Below are positions 4,262-23,384 of a DNA stretch of 28,110 nt, piece by piece. The translations under genes were made by a program, and so were the position numbers. This stretch comes from a virus, in IMG/VR virus record IMGVR_UViG_3300032246_000351, positions 1 through 28,110 of that record, one strand, 5' to 3'. Numbering within the stretch: position 1 is the first letter of the stretch; each line of letters begins with the position of its first letter. The notes beneath the pieces are model-generated. The model saw nothing but the letters and a program-made list of their open reading frames with translations, searched no databases and had not been told where the DNA came from.

Positions 4262-6358
4262 TTAGAATGGGTTGGATGCTGAACTAGTTGGGCTAGCGTT
4301 GGCTGTTATTGTATTTTTGTAATATGAACTATCTGTCAAATATGATGAATTATTTACAGTATTCAGCATCAAATTTGTACTGGCTATAGTATTTGTTGGG
4401 TTTGACGGATTACCATTTTGGTTACTAGTTTGAGTTATAGATAACGGACCTGTAGGTGCTGTAAAATTGCTAGTGTACGCAGCAACGCCGTTCATTACCC
4501 TAACGTTTGATATAAGACCATACGCATTTTTACCGTTAGTTTGTCCGCCAATAACTGTAGTACCAATTGGGTTTATGTAAGTCGTTACAGTTGCTAATGT
4601 TGTACCAGTGCCGTTTACATATAGTTTAATAGTAGTCCCGTCATAAACTAATGCTAAATGATACCAGGTGCCAGTTGTAAGCGTAAAACTAGTACCGTTG
4701 ACTAGATTCCAACTTTGACTAGTGCTAGACATATACACTAATAAGTTATTCCCTGTGCCATCTAATGTTAGTGATACTGCGGTATATCCGTCGCCGTCAG
4801 CAGTTTGAAATATCCTACCATTTGCTTGTCCGGATCCACTTGGATTCCACCAAAGTTCAACTGTGAATGGATTAGAATAAAATGTTGTATTAGAAGTTGA
4901 TGTAGCCTCACCCCCATTAGTTGGAGTATGATTGAAACTTGAACTATCAGTTAAAAAACTTGCACCAATTGGGGTGTTTAATAATAAACTAGTTTGTGTT
5001 CCTGTAATAGCATTACTTGGACTACCGTATATATTTTCTGATTGTGTGCTTGGGAATGGTAATGTAGATGGTGTAAAATTTGTTGTATACATTGCAGTAC
5101 CTTTAACTATTCGTAAATTAGTAATATACTGAACTGCTTTGTAAGTTGTGCTATTGCTTGTGGCATCTTTTGTCCCAATAACTGCACTTGTGGTGCCGGG
5201 GTTTTGTGCTGCTGTTCCAAAAGAATTATTAACATAATCCGCAACACCATTTACATACATGGTAAGTGTACTTCCTGATCTTACTACCGCAATATGAGTC
5301 CAAACGTTTAGAGTAACAGAAGTTGCTCCTGTATAAGTAGTCCCGTTGAAGTAAAAAACTTTTCCAGTAGAATTGATGCCCCACACCCATGATGCAGCAG
5401 TACCTCGGTTAACCCTAGCATCAAATACCCCTTGACCTCCTGATGTAAAAGCGGTAGGTTGTATCCAGGCTTCAAGAGTAAAATCTCCAGTTAAATTAAA
5501 TGCTGTAGAACTACTAGGTAAGGTTAGATATGATGTGACAGTTGGGTCAAAAAATAAGCTACCACCAGTACTAACTGGTGTACTAGCGTTATAAGTTACA
5601 GTTCCGGTAGGAGTAAGAGTAAAGTTATTAGTACTATCATCAGTTAAATATGCTCCACTTGATGCTACATCTAATAATAATTGTGTACCAGTAACAGCGG
5701 TTAAAGCAGTTGTAGGCGGAGTAAATGTAAATGAATATACTGACTGCCCCTTAACGATGCGAACATTATTAACGTAAGAATTTGAAGGAGCAGGTTGATT
5801 GCTAGCCGTACTTAAATACAAATTCCCACCAGTGCCCATTGTAAATGTTAGTTTAAATGTTCCAAACAATACCCCATTTAAATAACAACCAATATAACTT
5901 CCTGTTCTAACCATCGCAAGATGATACCATGTGTTAAGTGAGAATGGCGTAGTTATTGCGTTAGAAGTGACACCTCCATTCCCTACATAATAATAAATAT
6001 TAGTACCATTGGGCAGGAATCCATATATTGGATTTGTATAGCCAATACTCCACCCCTGTTGAAGTATAGGGCCCCATCCATTTGGATATGATAAAGCATA
6101 ATACCAACATTCTACAGTCCAATCACCTGCGCCGGCACCTAAATTTAATGCTGCGCTAGCAGGATATGACACATAACTATTATTAGTACCGTTAAAATAT
6201 ATACTCCCACCGAGTGGTGATTGATTAGTAGTATCTAGTCCACTAGTAGTTGTACTCAAGAACTGTGTAGTACCATTGAAGGATATACTGCCAGAGATTG
6301 CTTCTCCTGACATTTGTGTACCAGTTGGTATTGTTAAATCTGTTATTATTGCGGTCAT
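4262..6358 (-). CDS. Multi-LamG (concanavalin A-like) virion protein, three modules
   Basis: 698 residues built from about three LamG/laminin-G-like (concanavalin A lectin fold) modules. Each has the signature order: a first strand (SIYFNG.., SLFFDP..), an aromatic strand (DWTVECWYY, DFTLEAWIQPT, FTVELWWNP), a central strand (WYHLAMVRTG / WTHIAVVRSG / WYHLALVYDG), the 'YVNG' hairpin, then 'NVRIVKG..YT.NFTPP' and a linker ending 'SLLLNTP..SSFLTDSS'. The start lies 3 bases after the stop of the upstream LamG gene (TAA ACC ATG), so translation is probably coupled. The first 50 residues contain an extra LamG first strand (SISFNGTTQFLS) without the rest of its domain, apparently a remnant. The protein ends exactly at a module linker (TSSASNPF). 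Probable role: binding glycans on the host surface from the tail or capsid. Confidence 0.85.
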   Translation of the reverse strand: MTAIITDLTIPTGTQMSGEAISGSISFNGTTQFLSTTTSGLDTTNQSPLGGSIYFNGTNNSYVSYPASAALNLGAGAGDWTVECWYYALSYPNGWGPILQQGWSIGYTNPIYGFLPNGTNIYYYVGNGGVTSNAITTPFSLNTWYHLAMVRTGSYIGCYLNGVLFGTFKLTFTMGTGGNLYLSTASNQPAPSNSYVNNVRIVKGQSVYSFTFTPPTTALTAVTGTQLLLDVASSGAYLTDDSTNNFTLTPTGTVTYNASTPVSTGGSLFFDPTVTSYLTLPSSSTAFNLTGDFTLEAWIQPTAFTSGGQGVFDARVNRGTAASWVWGINSTGKVFYFNGTTYTGATSVTLNVWTHIAVVRSGSTLTMYVNGVADYVNNSFGTAAQNPGTTSAVIGTKDATSNSTTYKAVQYITNLRIVKGTAMYTTNFTPSTLPFPSTQSENIYGSPSNAITGTQTSLLLNTPIGASFLTDSSSFNHTPTNGGEATSTSNTTFYSNPFTVELWWNPSGSGQANGRIFQTADGDGYTAVSLTLDGTGNNLLVYMSSTSQSWNLVNGTSFTLTTGTWYHLALVYDGTTIKLYVNGTGTTLATVTTYINPIGTTVIGGQTNGKNAYGLISNVRVMNGVAAYTSNFTAPTGPLSITQTSNQNGNPSNPTNTIASTNLMLNTVNNSSYLTDSSYYKNTITANASPTSSASNPF

Positions 6359-6361
6359 GGT

Positions 6362-9300
6362 TTAGAATACGAATGGGTCTAATGTAGCGGAAGTAGCAGT
6401 ACCAACATTAGTTATTTTTAGATTATTTATAGAACTATCTACTAAAAAGTTAGTACCAAACGCTGTGTTTAACAGTAAACTAGTTTGTGTACTTGTTACA
6501 GCGGCTGATGGTGCGCCACTTTGATTTGCTGCTTGAGAATTATTTAATGGTCCTGCAGGGGGAACAAAGTTGCTGCTGTATACTGCTAGTCCTTTGACTA
6601 CACGCAAATTTGATAAGTAAGCATTTGAATAATATACACCAGCACTGCTGCCGCCAATAGTAACACCAGATTCGAGACAGTTAACACCAGCTGATACTGG
6701 GGTTGACCCTATGCCGTTTACATAGGCAGTAACTGATCCGCTCGTTCTCACAAATGCTACATGAAGCCATCGTCCCGTTGTAATAGGAATATCTGTAAAA
6801 TAAGAAAAAAATTGAGTGCTAAAATATAAAGTACCAGTAGTAGCACTATCTCCATATGCGCCAAATCCGAGACAATTTGAAGATCCATAATATGGCCCAA
6901 CTAGATGTTGATATCCCAATGATAAAGAATTATAATATACCCAATATTCAACTGTAAAATCTCCGGTGCCAAATGCAAGAGTGTCTGCCGCACTTGAATT
7001 ATACAAATACTGACTTGTACCATTCAATGACACACTACCCGGATTAGAAAGTATTGTATAATTCTCTGTGAACGGATTGAATGGATTACTTGTAGCAGTA
7101 CCAACATTAGTTACAGTAAACGCATTAGTTGAACTATCAGTTAAATAACTACTATTACTTGGAGTAGTTAATAACAAACTTGTCTGTGAACTTTGTACTG
7201 GACAACTGGGTATACCACTTTGATTAAATGTTTGATTATTAGTAAATGGCCCTGATGTAGGTATGAAGTTTTGTGTATATACTGCTGCACCTTTGACAAT
7301 GCGGAAGTTAGAAATATAACCATTGTAATATAAAGGACCATTATTATAATTGCCAATCCATAACGGAGCCCCGGATGCCGATCCTCCTCCTGCATAAGTA
7401 CCTTCTAATATACCATTTAAGTATAATTTAGTATTAGTACCATCATATACAAGTGCTACATGATACCAATTATTTACTGTAATTGTAGTATTTGATATTA
7501 TTACAGGGCCCACAGAACTCATATCAACATATAATTTTCCGGGAATTCCACCGCTACCTATACCTAAACCCATAAATCCAGATTGAAGTTCAGCCCAAAG
7601 AAATCCATTTGTTATGTTTGTTGGATAAAACCAACACTCCCAAGTGAATATACCATTTTGGTCAAATGCGGTATTTGATGCTAAACTTAAGTATTGACTA
7701 CTACCATTAAAAAATATACTTCCCGGCGTAAATATACTACCATTACTATTGAATGGGTTAGTTGAATTACTTGTTAATGTATAAGTTGACTTTGGATAAT
7801 TACCTGTGGTTTGTTGTGTTAATGTGACACCATTGAATGACCCATCAGTAAGAAAATTATTATTGTAGGGCATGTTTACTAATAAACTTGTTTGGTTACT
7901 ACTAATAGATTTTGACGGTGATCCAATTGTGTTTGGTGCTTGTACTGCTGGTAGTGGTTGCACTGGTGGAGTAAAATTACCTACATTATAAACTGACACA
8001 CCATTAACAATACGAACATTACTTATGTTACCTTTAAAAGGTCCTGCGCCGTTACTACCAATACCGATATATACTGATTGTGAAGCGGGTGATACTATAG
8101 GACTAGTAAATGGTGCACCTGATTGTGTAGCAAAATTGTATGGATCGGGACCAGATGATACTAACTTACCATTAATAAACATATTAGTAACTAAATTTTG
8201 TCTGCACACAGCAACGTGTGTCCAGGTGTTAGCAGTGATAGTTCCTCCACCAATAGTAAACAGTGATGGGTAATTTAATCCAGATGTTGCAGGTGGATAA
8301 GCACTACTGTTATAGTAATTAACATAACGTAATCCGTTGTTGTAATAAACTAAAGTGCCTTGATTAGCACTACTTGATGGTCCATGATCCATCAGATAAA
8401 TTGTACCACTAGTCCAATTTGTTGCTGTAGGGTATATCCACATTTCCCATGTAAAATCATTGGTACTATAATTAAATTGTGTTGCTCTTGCTATAGACAA
8501 ATATTGATTAGTACCGTTAAACAATATACTACCTGAATAAGTACCCGGGCCCAAAGCACTTGAGGTTGGGCCATTTACAGCAGTTACTGTTTGAGCATAA
8601 CTTGAAGTATCAGTTAAGTAACTACTATTATTAGGAGTAGTTAATAACAAACTAGTTTGCGTACCAGTAATTGCTTGATTGTATCCAGATAAATTTAAAC
8701 TTTGTGTCGATGTTAATGGCGGGGTAGGAACGGTAATATTTGGGGGGACATATAATGCTACCCCTTTAACGATACGTATGTTGCTTAAATATCCATTGAA
8801 TGCATATGATGGGTCACCGGTAATATAACTAGCAGGCATACCAAATTCCCACGGCTGGGCTTGATTAACTGTAGGGGTAACACTAGGAGTAGTACTAACT
8901 AATACTCCATTTAAATATAAATAATAACGATTTCCATCTGATGTATCTTTACATAAAGCCACATGATACCAAGTGTTTAATGATATTGTACCAGTGGGCC
9001 AACTACTCATGTAAACCCAACCCAAATCTGTAGTGTAAAATTGTGCTTGTAAAACATTAGTGTTAACTGTTACTTGACTATTATCACCGGATAATATAGA
9101 AAAAAGCACATTTTGACCATTACCCTGATTTAAAAAATATTGTGGGGTACCACTACGTGCATGTTCACTAGCATATATCCAACATTCTACAGTCCAATTT
9201 GGTGATCCTGTAGTTATATCTAATATAGTACCGTTTGCTCCGGACCCAGTTCCACTAGTAACTACTGTTTGATTAATTCCGTTAAATGATATACTTCCGT

Positions 9301-9367
9301 AAGGTGGTGACAGAACCGTATTATTAAAACCAGTTGTTAAATTTGATCCAGAGATTTGTATTGACAT
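6362..9367 (-). CDS. Multi-LamG (concanavalin A-like) virion protein, four modules
   Basis: 1001 residues made of four LamG-like modules of about 250 residues each: roughly 24-210, 280-490, 550-760 and 800-960. Each module repeats the same series: 'ISFNG..Q.L', an aromatic strand (WTVECWIYA, FTWEMWIYPT, FTWECWFYPT, FTVEYWVYY), 'WYHVAL', 'LYLNG', 'GYISNFRIVKG.AVY', then a linker 'TQTSLLLTTPSNSSYLTDSS'. No signal peptide or membrane segment is visible. A virion adhesin binding host polysaccharide is the simplest reading. A strong late-promoter-like box ends only four bases before the ATG and no ribosome binding site is visible, which is odd for such a large protein. No other Met lies near the N-terminus, and the module starts at once, so this start is probably right. 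Confidence 0.87.
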   Translation of the reverse strand: MSIQISGSNLTTGFNNTVLSPPYGSISFNGINQTVVTSGTGSGANGTILDITTGSPNWTVECWIYASEHARSGTPQYFLNQGNGQNVLFSILSGDNSQVTVNTNVLQAQFYTTDLGWVYMSSWPTGTISLNTWYHVALCKDTSDGNRYYLYLNGVLVSTTPSVTPTVNQAQPWEFGMPASYITGDPSYAFNGYLSNIRIVKGVALYVPPNITVPTPPLTSTQSLNLSGYNQAITGTQTSLLLTTPNNSSYLTDTSSYAQTVTAVNGPTSSALGPGTYSGSILFNGTNQYLSIARATQFNYSTNDFTWEMWIYPTATNWTSGTIYLMDHGPSSSANQGTLVYYNNGLRYVNYYNSSAYPPATSGLNYPSLFTIGGGTITANTWTHVAVCRQNLVTNMFINGKLVSSGPDPYNFATQSGAPFTSPIVSPASQSVYIGIGSNGAGPFKGNISNVRIVNGVSVYNVGNFTPPVQPLPAVQAPNTIGSPSKSISSNQTSLLVNMPYNNNFLTDGSFNGVTLTQQTTGNYPKSTYTLTSNSTNPFNSNGSIFTPGSIFFNGSSQYLSLASNTAFDQNGIFTWECWFYPTNITNGFLWAELQSGFMGLGIGSGGIPGKLYVDMSSVGPVIISNTTITVNNWYHVALVYDGTNTKLYLNGILEGTYAGGGSASGAPLWIGNYNNGPLYYNGYISNFRIVKGAAVYTQNFIPTSGPFTNNQTFNQSGIPSCPVQSSQTSLLLTTPSNSSYLTDSSTNAFTVTNVGTATSNPFNPFTENYTILSNPGSVSLNGTSQYLYNSSAADTLAFGTGDFTVEYWVYYNSLSLGYQHLVGPYYGSSNCLGFGAYGDSATTGTLYFSTQFFSYFTDIPITTGRWLHVAFVRTSGSVTAYVNGIGSTPVSAGVNCLESGVTIGGSSAGVYYSNAYLSNLRVVKGLAVYSSNFVPPAGPLNNSQAANQSGAPSAAVTSTQTSLLLNTAFGTNFLVDSSINNLKITNVGTATSATLDPFVF

Positions 9368-15447: not shown

Positions 15448-18400
15448 TTAAACCTTAGAATACATTAATAATTTTGATTGTGTGTCATTGCTATCGCTAA
15501 GTTTTGAAATCATAGTATCTAATTTTTCAGCAAGCATTTCCATAACATCAGTATTCATTGAATAAATTTCTTTGATAGTGTCGCTAGTTGATGATGAAGA
15601 TGATGCACTTGCAGATTCCATTGAGGCTGCAGGAGTTTTGCCTAATTGTTCCAAAATACTATTAGGTGATAGTGGGGATATTATTTCGTTGCCGTGTAGT
15701 GTAGCAGGATAACCAGAATTTGGACCATCTACTATACCTCCTTTTTCTGCTGATATTGCTTTGGATCCCAAATCGTCAAACTGTGATGCTTTTCTAAATT
15801 GTTCTTGTAAATGTGATCCTTCTTTATCAAAATCTGATGCTTTGTGTCCTAATCCAGCAACAGTGTTTAATACATATTTTAATGCAGCATTAGAATCCGT
15901 CATGGAATTTAAATCTTTTAGTGCAGTAGATTTTCCACCTCTAGTAGAAAACAAGTAACCTGCAAGAGCAGCAGATGCACCAGAAAAATCTTCTGCCACT
16001 TGATCAGGATCTTTCACAAAGTCTTTGCCAACTTCTTTTCCAACTTTTTCGTATACTGATCTACCTGTTATTCCAATAAACCCACGACCACGATATTTGT
16101 AAGCATCACCTGGATTTTTATTTGTACCCAATCCACCATAAACATAATCAAAGAATTCTTCATCTCCTTTACTCCAAGCAGCGTTCAATGCATCTGCGGG
16201 AACGCCGGTATCTCCAAATCCTTTCTCTTTTGCTACTCTGCCACCTGGTTTTAATTGAGGGAAAACTTTCCAAATATAATCTAGACCTTTACCTGCTAAT
16301 GTTTTCAGATAAGCAGCAGCGCCTGATTCTTTTGCCGATGGATCTAACCCTGACTCTTTTGCAGCCGTTTGAACAATGGCTTTCTTTGCCACTGGGTTCG
16401 TAATACCATACTTGTCTAATTCATTGGCCAGTTTAGCTGCATTTCCAGTCATGTCAACTTTTCCTGACTTACTTTTTTCTGCTGTAGGAATCTTTCCCGC
16501 GGTTGACGGTGGTGCTCCGCCTCCGCCACCGCCTCCAGATATGGGCGCAGATGATGCTGCGGCTGCTGCAGGTGCTCCACCTCCACCTCCGCCACCTCCA
16601 CCTCCGCCCCTTCCACCACCGCCACCTGCGGATGCTGCCGGTGCTGCTGATTTAGCTGCTGCTGCAGGTGCTCCGCCACCGCCACCTGCGGATGCTGCAG
16701 GTGCTCCGCCACCGCCACCTGCGGATGCTGCCGGTGCTGCTGATTTAGCTGCTGCTGCAGGTGCTCCGCCACCACCGCCTCCACCAGAAGGTGCTGCAGG
16801 TGCTGCTGATTTAGCTGCTGCTGCAGGTGCTCCGCCTCCACCGCCTCCACCAGAAGGTGCTGCAGGTGCTCCGCCTCCACCGCCTCCACCAGACGGTGCT
16901 GCTGCTGATGCTGCTGCAGGTGCTCCGCCACCAGCCCCACCGCCAGACGATGATGCAGGTGCTCCGCCGCCACCTCTACTTGCAGGAGCTGTACCTCCTT
17001 TTAGACCTGATGAAAAAGAAGCAAAGGCTTCTGCCATTTCTTTTGTCTTTTTAGGGTCAATATCAAGTTTAGAAAAATCAACAAATTTTTGTATAATGTC
17101 TTTTTGACCAAATAGTTTTCCTATACCATCACCAATGTTACCAATTGTATTACCTATTGCAGCAGATGCTTGACCTACACCTCCCATAGCAAATGCTGCG
17201 CTAAATGCACTAAATGCTTCAGCATTTGATTTTACTTTAGGCCCATCTATGTCAAGTTTAGAGAATTCAACTAATTTATCTATTGGTGTTTTGCCACCGA
17301 AGAAAGCAGTTAAGCCCTCAGACATATTACCAATGATGCCACCTATACCTGCTGCTGCTCCACCTGCACCAAATACTGCCAATCCTTGACCTAATCCGAT
17401 CATACCGTCACCGGCATCTTTTAGTTTAGCACCATCTAATTTTTCAAAACTTTGGATACCTTCCATTAATGTTGGCAATGTTTTTCCCAGTATCCAACTT
17501 GCACCTGCAATGCCTGCGCCTATTGTAGCAATCATTGCTGCGATTGAGGCACCCAATGTTGTTGCACCAAGAAGAACCATTGGATTAGCAAATGCTTTCA
17601 AGAAGCCAGCAGCACCTTCACCCACTCCTGTTCCTAGTTTAGCTAATGCAGGGCCTGCATCGCCAATCATAGACATTACTTTGCTTCCACCAGCACCGCC
17701 TGGTGCGGCAGCGCCTGCCATACTGCTCATTGCAGCAGTACCGGCTTGTTTTTTCATATGTGATTGTAATGCTGCTCCTGCTAATGCTTTACCATTTTTT
17801 CCTGTTGGCACTGTTGAAGCAGCGGTTGAAGCAACTGAAGAACCGGCAGTTTTTGCTACGTCTGGTAATGATGATGCTCCTTTACCAAATACACCTTTAA
17901 TACCTTCTTTCAGTCCACCGGCTGAGCCAGCAACTGCCTTGACTGTTAAAACTGACAAGGCAGTTGCTGCAAATATACCTATTGCTGCTGTAGCCGTTGC
18001 TAAATTAAAACCAAATCCTTGAAGTAATGGATTTGTTGCTGCTAGTGCTTCGTCAAATGCCACTGTAGTTTTAATCGTAGCAGTAGTTACCGCGTTTCTA
18101 GCTTTTTCTGCATTATCTTCTGCTGACTTGCCGCCTGCTGTTTTATCTCCCTCAACAACACCTTTCACTGAATCTGTAGCTGATTTATTTCTATCAACGT
18201 CACTTGTTCCAGCAGTCATACCTGTTCGTGTTACAGATTCTTGCTCTAATCCAACTTGTTTACCTAACTCTGCGCCTCCGTATTGTAATGCCGTACCAAG
18301 CTGATTTATTTTTTCACTTTGCTTTCCCTTAAAAGATTCAGTAAATTCTGCTGCACCTTCTCTAGCTTGTTCTTTGGTTTTACCTTTAAATCCCTTTTGA

Positions 18401-19506
18401 ACTTGATCCGCAGATATACCTAAATTAGCTAAACCAGCAGTTGATGCATCAAACGTACCGGTACGTGCTACTTTTCCTACTTGTAATCCGGCTCCTTTAC
18501 CAAGTGTTGCAGTTACTTGAGTAATGTATTCTTTTCTAGCATCTTGCTCTTGTTGCAATGCAGCCGCTTCATCATTTCTGCCTTCTTTTTTTAGTTTGCG
18601 TATCTTATCATCTTCTAAACGAGTAGCTATTACTTCTTCATACTCTAGCATTGCTGCTTTTTGATCTTCTTGAAGTTGATCAGCATTCTTACCGGTTAAC
18701 GCTGATAAACGCAATAAGTTTTGTGAATATTCTAATGATGCTTTTTTTAGTGCGTCACCATTTTTAGCTTGATCAGCCAATGACTTACCGGACATTGTTT
18801 GTAGTGCAACATAGTCGGCTTGTTGATTCATCAATTCTTCTTGGCTTACTCCCATTCTTTGGAATGCTTCACGAGTTGCATCGGTTACAGCAACCATCTT
18901 CCCAAAGTTAAGAGCACCATCACCAAATTTATCACCCAATGCTATTAAGCCGCCACTAGTGCGTTTCATTGCATCTGTAAACTTCTTAGATTGTTCTAAT
19001 GATAGTCCAGAAGCATGGACCATATCAACTACTTGTTGAGTTGACAATGCTCCGGCGTTACCTAATTTCTTTATCTCATCACTAGCTTTTAATGCATCAT
19101 CTGCTTGCTTCATCTGCATAGTAAGCAGCTTAGTACTAACTTGTACTATCCCGCCTAATACTGCACCCAGTGGTCCAAAGTTTTTAGCTACAGTGGCAAC
19201 TGCGCCTGCAGCAGAGTTTAAGCTATCACCAAATTTATTAAATCCACCGTCAGCACCATTTGTTAGTGCTTTACCAAAACTAGCCATTCCCGCTATAGCT
19301 TGGTTCTGCGCTTGCTCCATGCGCCTGTTAGCTTTGTCTATAATATCAGCAGCTTCTTTTTCCGCTTTTGCAGCTTCAGTAGTTGCATCACTAAACGTTT
19401 TTACACCAGTGCTGGCTTGGTGGGTACTGTCTCCCATATACCGAAAATGTTCGACAAGTTCCTTCATTACTCTAGCTAATTCTGCTGATTCTGCTGATTC
19501 TGCCAT
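15448..19506 (-). CDS. Tape-measure-like tail protein with embedded GH19 lysozyme-like domain
   Basis: 1352 residues. The N-terminal 480 or so are Ala/Lys/Glu-rich helices and coiled coil (AEKEAADIIDKANRRMEQAQNQ). Hydrophobic, membrane-like stretches follow (ATAAIGIFAATALSVL; the LLGATTLGASIAAMIATIGAG region), typical of tape-measure proteins that set tail length and pass through the membrane. Residues about 840-1008 are a low-complexity linker of GGGGGGAPAA/KSAAPAA repeats. Residues about 1022-1242 look like a GH19 chitinase/endolysin domain: helix with AAKESG (candidate catalytic Glu), then 'NPGDAYKYRGRGFIGITGR' and 'AGYLFSTRGG'. A C-terminal coiled coil follows. It would open peptidoglycan during DNA entry. 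The gene lies next to gp20 and opposite the gp26-like gene. Whether it replaces T4 gp29 is inference. Confidence 0.8.
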   Translation of the reverse strand: MAESAESAELARVMKELVEHFRYMGDSTHQASTGVKTFSDATTEAAKAEKEAADIIDKANRRMEQAQNQAIAGMASFGKALTNGADGGFNKFGDSLNSAAGAVATVAKNFGPLGAVLGGIVQVSTKLLTMQMKQADDALKASDEIKKLGNAGALSTQQVVDMVHASGLSLEQSKKFTDAMKRTSGGLIALGDKFGDGALNFGKMVAVTDATREAFQRMGVSQEELMNQQADYVALQTMSGKSLADQAKNGDALKKASLEYSQNLLRLSALTGKNADQLQEDQKAAMLEYEEVIATRLEDDKIRKLKKEGRNDEAAALQQEQDARKEYITQVTATLGKGAGLQVGKVARTGTFDASTAGLANLGISADQVQKGFKGKTKEQAREGAAEFTESFKGKQSEKINQLGTALQYGGAELGKQVGLEQESVTRTGMTAGTSDVDRNKSATDSVKGVVEGDKTAGGKSAEDNAEKARNAVTTATIKTTVAFDEALAATNPLLQGFGFNLATATAAIGIFAATALSVLTVKAVAGSAGGLKEGIKGVFGKGASSLPDVAKTAGSSVASTAASTVPTGKNGKALAGAALQSHMKKQAGTAAMSSMAGAAAPGGAGGSKVMSMIGDAGPALAKLGTGVGEGAAGFLKAFANPMVLLGATTLGASIAAMIATIGAGIAGASWILGKTLPTLMEGIQSFEKLDGAKLKDAGDGMIGLGQGLAVFGAGGAAAGIGGIIGNMSEGLTAFFGGKTPIDKLVEFSKLDIDGPKVKSNAEAFSAFSAAFAMGGVGQASAAIGNTIGNIGDGIGKLFGQKDIIQKFVDFSKLDIDPKKTKEMAEAFASFSSGLKGGTAPASRGGGGAPASSSGGGAGGGAPAAASAAAPSGGGGGGGAPAAPSGGGGGGGAPAAAAKSAAPAAPSGGGGGGGAPAAAAKSAAPAASAGGGGGAPAASAGGGGGAPAAAAKSAAPAASAGGGGGRGGGGGGGGGGGAPAAAAASSAPISGGGGGGGAPPSTAGKIPTAEKSKSGKVDMTGNAAKLANELDKYGITNPVAKKAIVQTAAKESGLDPSAKESGAAAYLKTLAGKGLDYIWKVFPQLKPGGRVAKEKGFGDTGVPADALNAAWSKGDEEFFDYVYGGLGTNKNPGDAYKYRGRGFIGITGRSVYEKVGKEVGKDFVKDPDQVAEDFSGASAALAGYLFSTRGGKSTALKDLNSMTDSNAALKYVLNTVAGLGHKASDFDKEGSHLQEQFRKASQFDDLGSKAISAEKGGIVDGPNSGYPATLHGNEIISPLSPNSILEQLGKTPAASMESASASSSSSTSDTIKEIYSMNTDVMEMLAEKLDTMISKLSDSNDTQSKLLMYSKV
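16500..16980 (-). repeat. GC-rich tandem repeats coding for the Gly/Ala/Pro linker of the tape-measure-like protein
   Basis: Repeats built from units such as GCTCCGCCACCGCCACCT and a longer unit of about 60 bases (GGATGCTGCCGGTGCTGCTG followed by ATTTAGCTGCTGCTGCAGG on the plus strand), seen at about 16630, 16720 and 16790. Base composition is far richer in G+C than the surroundings. Such an array can expand or contract by slippage. The plus strand has long open proline-rich frames here that are shadows. Confidence 0.85.
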
Positions 19507-19606: not shown

Positions 19607-20431
19607 ATGTTAGCAAACAACCCATTAAAGCAATTTTTTCGCAGACCCTCAATTTATTTGAAATTACCTAGTGGTGGAGAGGGATACTCTACGGAAGTTT
19701 TGTCAATGACGGAAACTGGTGAAGTTCCAGTATACCCGATGACCGCGATTGATGAAATTACAGTAAGAACACCGGATGCCTTGTATAATGGTACAGCAAT
19801 TGTAGAACTAATCAAAAGCTGTGTGCCAGCAATCAAAGATCCATGGCAAGTAAAAAGTATCGATGTAGATGCTATATTATTAGCAATTAAATCTTGCTCA
19901 CAGGGTAATGATTTAGAAGTTGAATCTACTTGTCCAGCATGTACCGAAGCGGCTACATACGGAGTTAATTTGATTGGTATGCTACAAAATATTAAAAAAG
20001 TAGACTACTCTACTCCATTACGGTTAGGTGAAATGGAAATAAAATTTAGACCACTAATATACAAAGAAATGAGTGTTGCCGGAAAACACCAGTTTGAACT
20101 ACAAAAAGTTTTTTCAAACATGCAAGCATTACCAGAAGAAGAACGACCTGCAAAGATGCATGAAGCAGTAGTATCAGTCACCGCAATCACAATGGATTTA
20201 CTATCTCAAACTATTGAATATATAAAAATCAAAGATATGGTCGTAACTCAAACAGAATTTATATTAGAATTCTTGCAGAATTGTGATAAGAACATCTATG
20301 TTGAGATACGTGATTATCATGGTAAATTAAAAGATCAATCAAAATTAGAGCCACAAAAAATTAAATGTATTCATTGCCAGCATGAATATTCACAAGATAT
20401 AGTAATTAACCAATCAGATTTTTTCGGTTAA
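19607..20431 (+). CDS. gp26: Baseplate hub/tail assembly protein (T4 gp26-like)
   Basis: 274 residues, resembling the T4 baseplate family that includes gp26, which helps assemble the central hub of the baseplate. Visible features: 'PSGGEGY' and 'EVPVYPMTAIDEI..RTPDALYNGTAIVELIKSCVPAI' in the first third, then two zinc-binding Cys pairs, CPAC (about residue 112) and CIHC near the C-terminus, and 'FRPLIYKEMSVA' in the middle. T4 gp26 is 208 residues. An AAAGGA site precedes the ATG. The gene is divergent from the tape-measure-like gene. Its last codons read GAT TTT TTC GGT TAA, a perfect slippery heptamer, and a small conserved-looking frame continues in -1 (see next entries). Confidence 0.8.
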   Translation: MLANNPLKQFFRRPSIYLKLPSGGEGYSTEVLSMTETGEVPVYPMTAIDEITVRTPDALYNGTAIVELIKSCVPAIKDPWQVKSIDVDAILLAIKSCSQGNDLEVESTCPACTEAATYGVNLIGMLQNIKKVDYSTPLRLGEMEIKFRPLIYKEMSVAGKHQFELQKVFSNMQALPEEERPAKMHEAVVSVTAITMDLLSQTIEYIKIKDMVVTQTEFILEFLQNCDKNIYVEIRDYHGKLKDQSKLEPQKIKCIHCQHEYSQDIVINQSDFFG

Positions 20432-20467
20432 GGCTTCTACACTTAGACCCTGAAGGTGTTCAGAAGC
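20419..20467 (+). promoter_or_regulatory. Predicted programmed -1 ribosomal frameshift signal
   Basis: T_TTT_TTC at 20419-20425 is in the correct phase for gp26 (TTT = 20420-20422, TTC = 20423-20425). The gp26 stop is at 20429-20431. A 7-base spacer leads to a stem: GCTTCT (20433-20438) pairs with AGAAGC (20462-20467), extended by ACAC (20439-20442) with GTGT (20456-20459) across a 2-base bulge. All three parts of a classical -1 frameshift site are present. Confidence 0.7.
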
Positions 20468-20655
20468 TGCTAGACAGCATGGAGAAAGAATGTACCGAGA
20501 TAAGAAAAACGGCATTGACGTTATCTTGGTACATGAGGGGTGGTGCTTCATATGAAGATATCCTAAACATGTCCCATGAGGAACGTAAACTAGTAAATGA
20601 ATTAATAGAAAACAATTTAGAAACTACTAAGAAAACACAAATGCCGTTCTTCTAA
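20425..20655 (+). CDS. -1 frame extension of gp26-like protein (or separate 58-residue protein from ATG 20479)
   Basis: After slippage the frame reads R-L-R-L-L-H-L-D-P-E-G-V-Q-K and continues through MEKECTEIRKTALTLSWYMRGG to LETTKKTQMPFF, then TAA at 20653. The fusion with gp26 would be 349 residues. The part before the first ATG (20479) has no stop and reads as a Leu-rich amphipathic helix, so it looks coding. The ATG at 20479 has no ribosome binding site, which argues against independent translation (58 residues). I associate the 'LSWYMRGG...TTKK..PFF' pattern with small proteins following gp26 in T4-like phages, but cannot check this here. Probable role: tail or hub assembly chaperone extension. 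Confidence 0.72.
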   Translation, partial: RLRLLHLDPEGVQKLLDSMEKECTEIRKTALTLSWYMRGGASYEDILNMSHEERKLVNELIENNLETTKKTQMPFF

Positions 20656-20710: not shown

Positions 20711-20757
20711 GATGAACTTCGTTCATCTAAGCCCTCACTTCGTTCGGTCTTATTTTT
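20711..20757 (+). terminator. Candidate terminator after the gp26-like transcription unit
   Basis: Two adjacent hairpins, GATGAAC-TTC-GTTCATC and TAAGCC...GGTCTTA, both containing ACTTCGTTC, with TTTTT directly after the second. The position 56-102 bases past the last plus-strand stop fits transcription end. Confidence 0.5.
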
Positions 20758-21728: not shown

Positions 21729-22355
21729 TTATCCCTTAATATAGTAATTGCAATAAAAAACTGTTTCTTCAATGCAATTGTTTCCGTTCAAAGTTAAACA
21801 AAACTTAATATAATTATAGATATCCTCTAACTCAATACCAGTGCCTTCCCATTTATCTAGTCTAGGCCAAAATGCATCCCACCATTCGGGTTTCCAATGA
21901 GGATGCTCATCAGTATTTAATTTATCCATAGTAATCAATGTAGTTTTAAATTTAGCTTTACCTTGTTTAAATCCTTGTGTACCTTGTTTACTTGCTTGCT
22001 CTAATGCAGCTTTGGCAACACAATATGTTTTGTATCTTGGTTCAGGGGCAGGTATAACTTTTGCTCCAATCGATCCTATATTGAATATGTGACCACTTTT
22101 GTCTGCATTACGCCATGCTTCATACACAGCAAGATATACATTAACTTGTCCAAAATTAGCCCAATCTTCAGCAGGGGGCCCGTCAAATGCATTGTTGATA
22201 AACACATCGTACCCTAAACTTAACTTAGCAATTCGCTTTTGATCTTCTGGCTTAGTAATATCATACCCTTCAGAACGTCCTATACTGTCGGCTCCAAACT
22301 GTTCAGTTAAATATCTACCTAATCCTTTACTACCGCCGGTGATTAATACTTTCAT
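21729..22355 (-). CDS. Short-chain dehydrogenase/reductase (SDR)
   Basis: 208 residues with a complete classical SDR signature: TGGSKGLG at 6-13 for NAD(P) binding, NNA at 54-56, catalytic Ser95 in NIGSIGA, and Tyr111-x3-Lys115 (YCVAK). It is shorter than usual SDRs (about 250), with a reduced C-terminal substrate region rich in Trp (HPHWKPEWWDAFWPRLDKW). Substrate unknown; candidates include sugars or modified nucleotides. It has an AAGGAAA site and starts 18 bases after the radical SAM stop. An auxiliary gene in a T4-like phage, possibly acquired from a bacterium. Confidence 0.88.
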   Translation of the reverse strand: MKVLITGGSKGLGRYLTEQFGADSIGRSEGYDITKPEDQKRIAKLSLGYDVFINNAFDGPPAEDWANFGQVNVYLAVYEAWRNADKSGHIFNIGSIGAKVIPAPEPRYKTYCVAKAALEQASKQGTQGFKQGKAKFKTTLITMDKLNTDEHPHWKPEWWDAFWPRLDKWEGTGIELEDIYNYIKFCLTLNGNNCIEETVFYCNYYIKG

Positions 22356-22373
22356 TTTTTTCCTTAATTTATT

Positions 22374-23384
22374 TTACCACTCAGTGGCATAATTTTCTGT
22401 AACACGATTCTTATCACATTTCATTGTACATTCTAAACTATCTTTGGTAAAGTTTGTTTTCCAAAAATTATTGTTAATTACTTCATTAAGTAATGTATCA
22501 TGTAAATTGAATTTCTTTCCAAGTTCTAACCAATCTTTATTGTGCTGATACCTATTAGCTACCCAACAGCATGGATAAAACTCTCCTTGGCTATTTATAT
22601 ACAAGCCCTTGTTACCTATCTGACACATGGGTTTTATCTTTTCATCTATTATATTAACATTCTTGTAAAAAGCCAAGTTAGTTTTAATCCATGGCTCTTT
22701 TAATTCTCTGTCTGATAAATTTATAAATTCTCGTTCAAATCTATGACTGGAACTCATTAGTTCTTGTTTAGGCTGAAGAATATCATATTCTCCATAGCTA
22801 GGATAAATCTTTCCAAATTTAGTACTCTTTGTTAATTGAAAATTATCAAAGCCAAGACTTTTAGCTAAGTCTGTCATGTAAGATATTTTATCTTCGTTAA
22901 ATTTAAATCCAATAGCATCCCATACTAGCCAAGCATCAGAAGTTTTTGCAATGATATCTACCCCTATCATTATACTTTTCCAGTCACTGTTCACACGGTA
23001 TATTTCATTACTAGTTTGATCCCATCCATCTAAACTAAAATGTACTTGATCATTAACCGTCAATACCTTAGCTAATTCAATCCACCAATCAGATTTTTTA
23101 TAACTACCATTAGTTACTATTATAATACTAACATTCTTTATGGATTTTATATACTTTACGATATCAACAAAATCATGTGCATATATTGGGTCACCATCAT
23201 CACCACAAAATGTAATTTTCTCTACATGATTAATGATGAATTCACTAGTAAAGTTTCGTTTAAAAAAATCTAAATCTAGTTCGGTATTTAACAAACTGTC
23301 GGGCATTTCTTGTCTAACACACCGTGGACAGGCAAGAGTGCATTTACTACTTACCTCTATGTGCCAATGCCATGCTGCTAACAT
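22374..23384 (-). CDS. Radical SAM enzyme with SPASM-like C-terminal cluster domain
   Basis: 336 residues. The radical SAM cluster motif is C15-x3-C19-x2-C22 (CTLACPRC), followed by CGDDGDP at 60-66 in place of the usual GGEP-like SAM-binding strand, and 'FSLDG' near 117. The C-terminal part has Cys254, 'LYINSQGEFYPCC' (272-273) and Cys319-x3-Cys323, the pattern of a SPASM/twitch domain binding an extra iron-sulphur cluster. Such enzymes modify peptides, sugars or other small substrates. The start overlaps the gp46 stop by one base (TAATG), so it is translationally coupled to gp46. No precursor peptide gene is obvious nearby. The substrate is unknown. Confidence 0.88.
   Translation of the reverse strand: MLAAWHWHIEVSSKCTLACPRCVRQEMPDSLLNTELDLDFFKRNFTSEFIINHVEKITFCGDDGDPIYAHDFVDIVKYIKSIKNVSIIIVTNGSYKKSDWWIELAKVLTVNDQVHFSLDGWDQTSNEIYRVNSDWKSIMIGVDIIAKTSDAWLVWDAIGFKFNEDKISYMTDLAKSLGFDNFQLTKSTKFGKIYPSYGEYDILQPKQELMSSSHRFEREFINLSDRELKEPWIKTNLAFYKNVNIIDEKIKPMCQIGNKGLYINSQGEFYPCCWVANRYQHNKDWLELGKKFNLHDTLLNEVINNNFWKTNFTKDSLECTMKCDKNRVTENYATEW

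Follow-up and report, generated by a model that had tools for sequence, protein, structure and literature searches.

The question raised by this locus is whether a gene resembling T4 gene 26 and the short open frame behind it encode two separate proteins or a short and a long form of one product. The locus lies within 28,110 nucleotides of viral DNA (IMG/VR record IMGVR_UViG_3300032246_000351, positions 1 to 28,110), referred to here in full as the window. A first-pass annotation proposed that the two frames are joined by a programmed −1 frameshift analogous to that of lambda G/GT, yielding 274- and 349-residue forms of a T4-like hub protein. Comparison with related phages strongly supports the frameshift, but the hub function is probably wrong. 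It is very probable, on the sequence evidence set out below, that the locus encodes the tail assembly chaperones TAC-N and TAC-NC of a jumbo phage, of the lambda G/GT type, and that these are made via programmed −1 frameshifting.

The 0-frame gene (19607..20431, plus strand, 274 codons) encodes the gp26-like short form, TAC-N, which contains two CxxC pairs. Its end reads GAT TTT TTC GGT TAA, with TTT at 20420-20422, so that the slippery heptamer T_TTT_TTC (20419..20425, plus strand) is in the X_XXY_YYZ phase, as the first-pass annotation had it. The TAA stop of the short form (20429..20431, plus strand) begins four bases after the heptamer, the figure originally given, although the bases in between number three (GGT). 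It is followed by a bulged hairpin, also noted earlier and now located at 20432..20468 (plus strand), in which 20432-20438 pair with 20462-20468 and 20439-20444 with 20454-20459, leaving a 2-nt bulge at 20460-20461. The spacer between heptamer and hairpin is 6 nt when the closing G-U pair is counted, and the earlier value of seven holds if that pair is ignored. The −1 frame is open from 20410 to 20652, as first read, and stops at 20653-20655. The part of it that would be added to the long form, the helical TAC-C, occupies 20425..20655 (plus strand, 76 codons and the stop). The predicted long product is therefore 273 + 76 = 349 residues against 274 for the short one, in agreement with the lengths first proposed. 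The ATG at 20479 in the −1 frame is, as claimed, without a Shine–Dalgarno sequence; GAAGCTGCTAGACAGC lies upstream of it.

Several other features of the window were recorded. A perfect hairpin (GATGAA-CTTCG-TTCATC, 20711-20727) is located 55 nt past the −1-frame stop and is followed by a second CTTCGTTCG motif; it may represent the transcript end, though it has no T tail. Two adjacent large proteins composed of repeated Laminin_G_3 (concanavalin A-like lectin) domains are encoded downstream of the capsid gene (4262-9367, minus strand). Between the gp46-like and PDDEXK endonuclease genes lie genes for a short-chain-dehydrogenase-like protein and a radical SAM/SPASM protein (21729-23384, minus strand). 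A scan of the window against Rfam gave no match, and ARAGORN found no tRNA in it.

In-phase TTTTTTN occurs six times in the 7442 codon positions of the large ORFs of the window, so that little weight can be put on the heptamer by itself. A 75-codon open frame is uncommon, having arisen in 6 of 5000 dinucleotide shuffles, and the fold energy of the hairpin, calculated from the window sequence alone, is no better than that of shuffles (z −0.81) and was not used as support. As the heptamer is not rare and the fold ordinary, the case rests on comparison with relatives.

A tblastn search with the gp26-like gene matched 62 phage records, mostly jumbo phages, and the loci of 16 cultured jumbo phages from among these were read, at a protein identity of roughly 24-33%. 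The homologous gene ends in an in-phase heptamer in all 16, TTTTTTC in 14 and TTTTTTT in 2. The same was found in two sets of IMG/VR loci, in 48/48 and 80/80 cases (128/128, some contigs recurring between the sets, which deduplicate to 92 distinct sequences). The alignment of relatives proposed as a check on the heptamer thus returned an in-phase TTTTTTC or TTTTTTT in every homologue tested. Among these relatives the distance from the heptamer to the 0-frame stop varies from 3 to 33 nt, while the −1 frame stays. This conservation is the decisive element, and lifts the candidate frameshift signal far beyond chance.

The family to which the products belong bears on their function. The short product falls within PF12322 (54.1 bits against a gathering cut-off of 24.5, E 2.2e-14) and matches PHROG 150 (E 3e-14), and the four cysteines of its CxxC pairs are invariant across 38 relatives. 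T4 gp26 and T4 gp51 both match PF12322. A profile of the fused proteins was compared with T4-type gp51, represented by a set of five sequences, and aligned with it over its entire length (E 4e-8 local, 1e-11 global), and the −1 domain alone matched the end of gp51 (E 2e-6). T4 gp26, in turn, aligned with only the part of the profile that precedes the shift. Since gp51 corresponds to the whole frameshifted product and gp26 only to the short one, the match points to a TAC pair and not to a hub protein. T4 itself encodes the two proteins in separate genes with divergent transcription; the TAC-C-like end is present on gp51 and absent from gp26, and a slippery heptamer was looked for near the stop and not found. 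The layout of the window recurs in S-RIM8, OLIVR6, Aeromonas 65.2 and phiM9, with TTTTTTC or, in phiM9, TTTTTTG as the heptamer; in three of these four the small ORF is named baseplate hub assembly catalyst, the name of T4 gp51. The phiM9 heptamer is also that of P2; that of lambda G/GT differs from the one in the window.

AlphaFold2 models were made of TAC-N and TAC-C as separate chains, from alignments limited to the window and IMG/VR sequences. The TAC-N model was confident (pLDDT 87) and matched T4-like gp26 and hub assembly proteins in BFVD with TM up to 0.90, and TAC-C was modelled as all-helical (pLDDT 83). Structure comparison against the PDB returned no tail chaperone and was uninformative (best Z 8.1 for TAC-N, over the 54 residues of one helical hairpin, and 5.4 for TAC-C), as was a PDB sequence search (E 0.2 or worse). 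NCBIfam gave only sub-threshold zinc-ribbon matches.

The gp26-like gene adjoins a tape-measure-like gene, as the first-pass annotation stated, but this neighbour is divergent. It spans 15448..19506 on the minus strand (1352 codons), and about residues 84-278 of its product resemble the product of the gene that occupies the equivalent position in 121Q (E 2e-4) and GAP32 (E 6e-3). The window's protein is a probable tape measure protein, and thus a probable client of the chaperone. The protein also carries a long, repetitive Gly/Ala/Pro-rich linker and a weak GH19/endolysin-like domain at about residues 1120-1192. Its counterpart in phage CBB, CBB_251, is a major virion protein and among the best-covered ones, with 29 unique peptides and 50% coverage. 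A tape measure protein spans 0.15 nm of tail per residue, and the approximately 722 residues of CBB_251 would correspond to about 108 nm; the CBB tail was measured at 123 nm with baseplate and collar. This is a circumstantial fit with a chaperone acting on the tape measure.

It could be argued that the frameshifting is real but that its products are structural proteins of the baseplate hub, as T4 gp26 and many of its homologues are annotated. We regard this as improbable. The annotation rests on older T4 work, and the anatomy of the locus is that of tail assembly chaperones. The CBB homologues of the gp26-like gene and of the −1 frame (CBB_250 and CBB_249) are not among the 55 listed CBB virion proteins, in contrast to the 29 peptides of the adjacent protein, in what is a single proteome of one phage with partial coverage. 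According to the accounts in PMC10885494 and PMC12846349, Vladimirov, Gautam and Davidson (2022; Virology 566:9-15) have identified the tail assembly chaperone genes of T4-like phages, and the second of these accounts credits them with the poly-T frameshift signals in the TAC-N genes. The first-pass annotation was not aware of such a frameshift as standard knowledge for T4-like phages; by these accounts it is not unknown there.

In all relatives a single homologous helical domain, beginning at two phenylalanines, is encoded in the −1 frame behind the heptamer. Nearly every complete case gives a fused product of 346-355 residues, with no indel at the junction, while the 0-frame stop shifts. Just past the heptamer, substitutions between the closest pairs of sequences are concentrated at third codon positions as read in the −1 frame (26/52, the pairs not being independent). 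The domain corresponds to PHROG 18291, a family of “unknown function”, which 24 of 37 aligned relatives match (best E 8e-38).

Most GenBank records annotate the small frame as a separate gene, sometimes overlapping the gp26 stop, and it could in principle be translated from its own start (in the window, the ATG at 20479) through coupling to the gp26 terminus, with the T run incidental. This is very unlikely. Where annotated, the small gene is always in the −1 frame, and the chosen start differs between records. The first start codon lies anywhere from 3 to 168 nt past the heptamer among relatives and is missing from the PA5oct-type locus, and a Shine–Dalgarno-like motif is present at only two of the listed first starts. 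The segment ahead of the first start is conserved as protein, which answers a further check proposed in the first-pass annotation, and the in-phase heptamer is invariant. The Pseudomonas phage Cygsa01 (L071:1072-1982) does have a gp26-like gene and a small −1-frame gene that starts at a TAATG overlap, with no slippery heptamer, so the Cygsa01 group may use translational coupling instead.

Within the window's clade, the hairpin was scored in an alignment (A2) of 24 distinct sequences free of gaps. Its columns 14-26/36-50, equivalent to 20432-20444/20454-20468, are paired in 92.6% of cells, against 33-53% when the structure is slid along the alignment; because this structure was taken from the window, the score favours it somewhat. 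Changes on both sides of a pair were seen in 22 cells, compared with 7.0 in shuffles (0/500 as high). In 59 sequences outside A2, pairing is 76.9% against 38-54% when slid, and 35 of them retain all seven of the lower pairs. Codon choice in the arms is also strongly biased, with CTT for Leu 4 in the −1 frame in 87/92 cases against 13% elsewhere, and AAG for Lys 14 in 79/79 against 28%. In 121Q, RaK2 and GAP32 there is at most a weak hairpin of this type. The stem, whose conservation the first-pass annotation proposed to check, is thus kept, with covariation, in the window's clade; the heptamer is shared by the whole family and the hairpin by a part of it. A six-T run could in principle make RNA polymerase slip and so give two forms with no ribosomal frameshift, but this is highly implausible, as six T make a short run for polymerase to slip on efficiently, phiM9 has TTTTTTG, the heptamer of P2, and the phase, the tandem codons and the covarying hairpin at 6 nt fit the ribosome.

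We infer the slippage, its frequency and the chaperone role in this phage from the conserved heptamer, the conserved −1 coding, the covariation of the hairpin in the clade and membership of the gp26/gp51 family. Under programmed frameshifting, the majority of ribosomes would translate 19607-20431 and terminate, producing the 274-residue TAC-N. A minority would be slowed at UUU UUC by the hairpin 6 nt downstream and would slip back one base, with both tRNA-Phe re-pairing with UUU UUU. These ribosomes would continue in the −1 frame to 20655, adding the helical TAC-C to form the 349-residue TAC-NC. By analogy with lambda gpG/gpGT, many copies of the short form may coat the tape measure protein, while a few copies of the long form may recruit tail tube subunits, with neither expected to stay in the virion.

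Frameshifting of this kind has precedents among phages, T4 relatives included, and the window adds a well-supported new case. The abstract of Vladimirov et al. 2022 is said to describe frameshifting as conserved in several T4-like groups, with the T4 group using genes 26 and 51. As far as T4-like TAC-N/TAC-NC are described in the accounts available, they resemble the window in having a gp26-family gene with a poly-T slippery sequence close to its end, and in reading the C-terminal domain from the −1 frame; the N-domain of the window is larger (274 residues), and its clade has the covarying hairpin. The two lambda products divide the work, the short one covering the tape measure protein and the long one bringing in tail tube subunits, and neither is part of the finished virion (PMC5009743). 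Lambda G/GT and P2 E/E' likewise shift to the −1 frame close to the end of a short gene that adjoins the gene for the tape measure (PMC5009743). The likeness considered here is one of layout, and the tape-measure-like gene of the window is on the opposite strand.

None of the papers searched brings jumbo phages, tail assembly chaperones and frameshifting together. It may be new that the signal is fixed across jumbo phages, that the hairpin covaries and that PHROG 18291 has an assignable function. It is possible, if somewhat doubtful, that the poly-T frameshift with its covarying hairpin is an undescribed fixed trait of a large jumbo-phage lineage and the older arrangement of the T4-like supergroup, with genes 26 and 51 arising when the T4 lineage assigned the short form and the long form to separate genes. 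T4 has been called an exception among long-tailed phages (PMC5009743), and the retention of the frameshift by its relatives bears on that remark. On the chaperone reading, the gene that carries a “baseplate hub” label in numerous jumbo phages would be corrected, and the orphan small-ORF family PHROG 18291 would become the C-terminal part of a chaperone. The locus also offers an RNA signal open to testing in phages that grow on laboratory E. coli.
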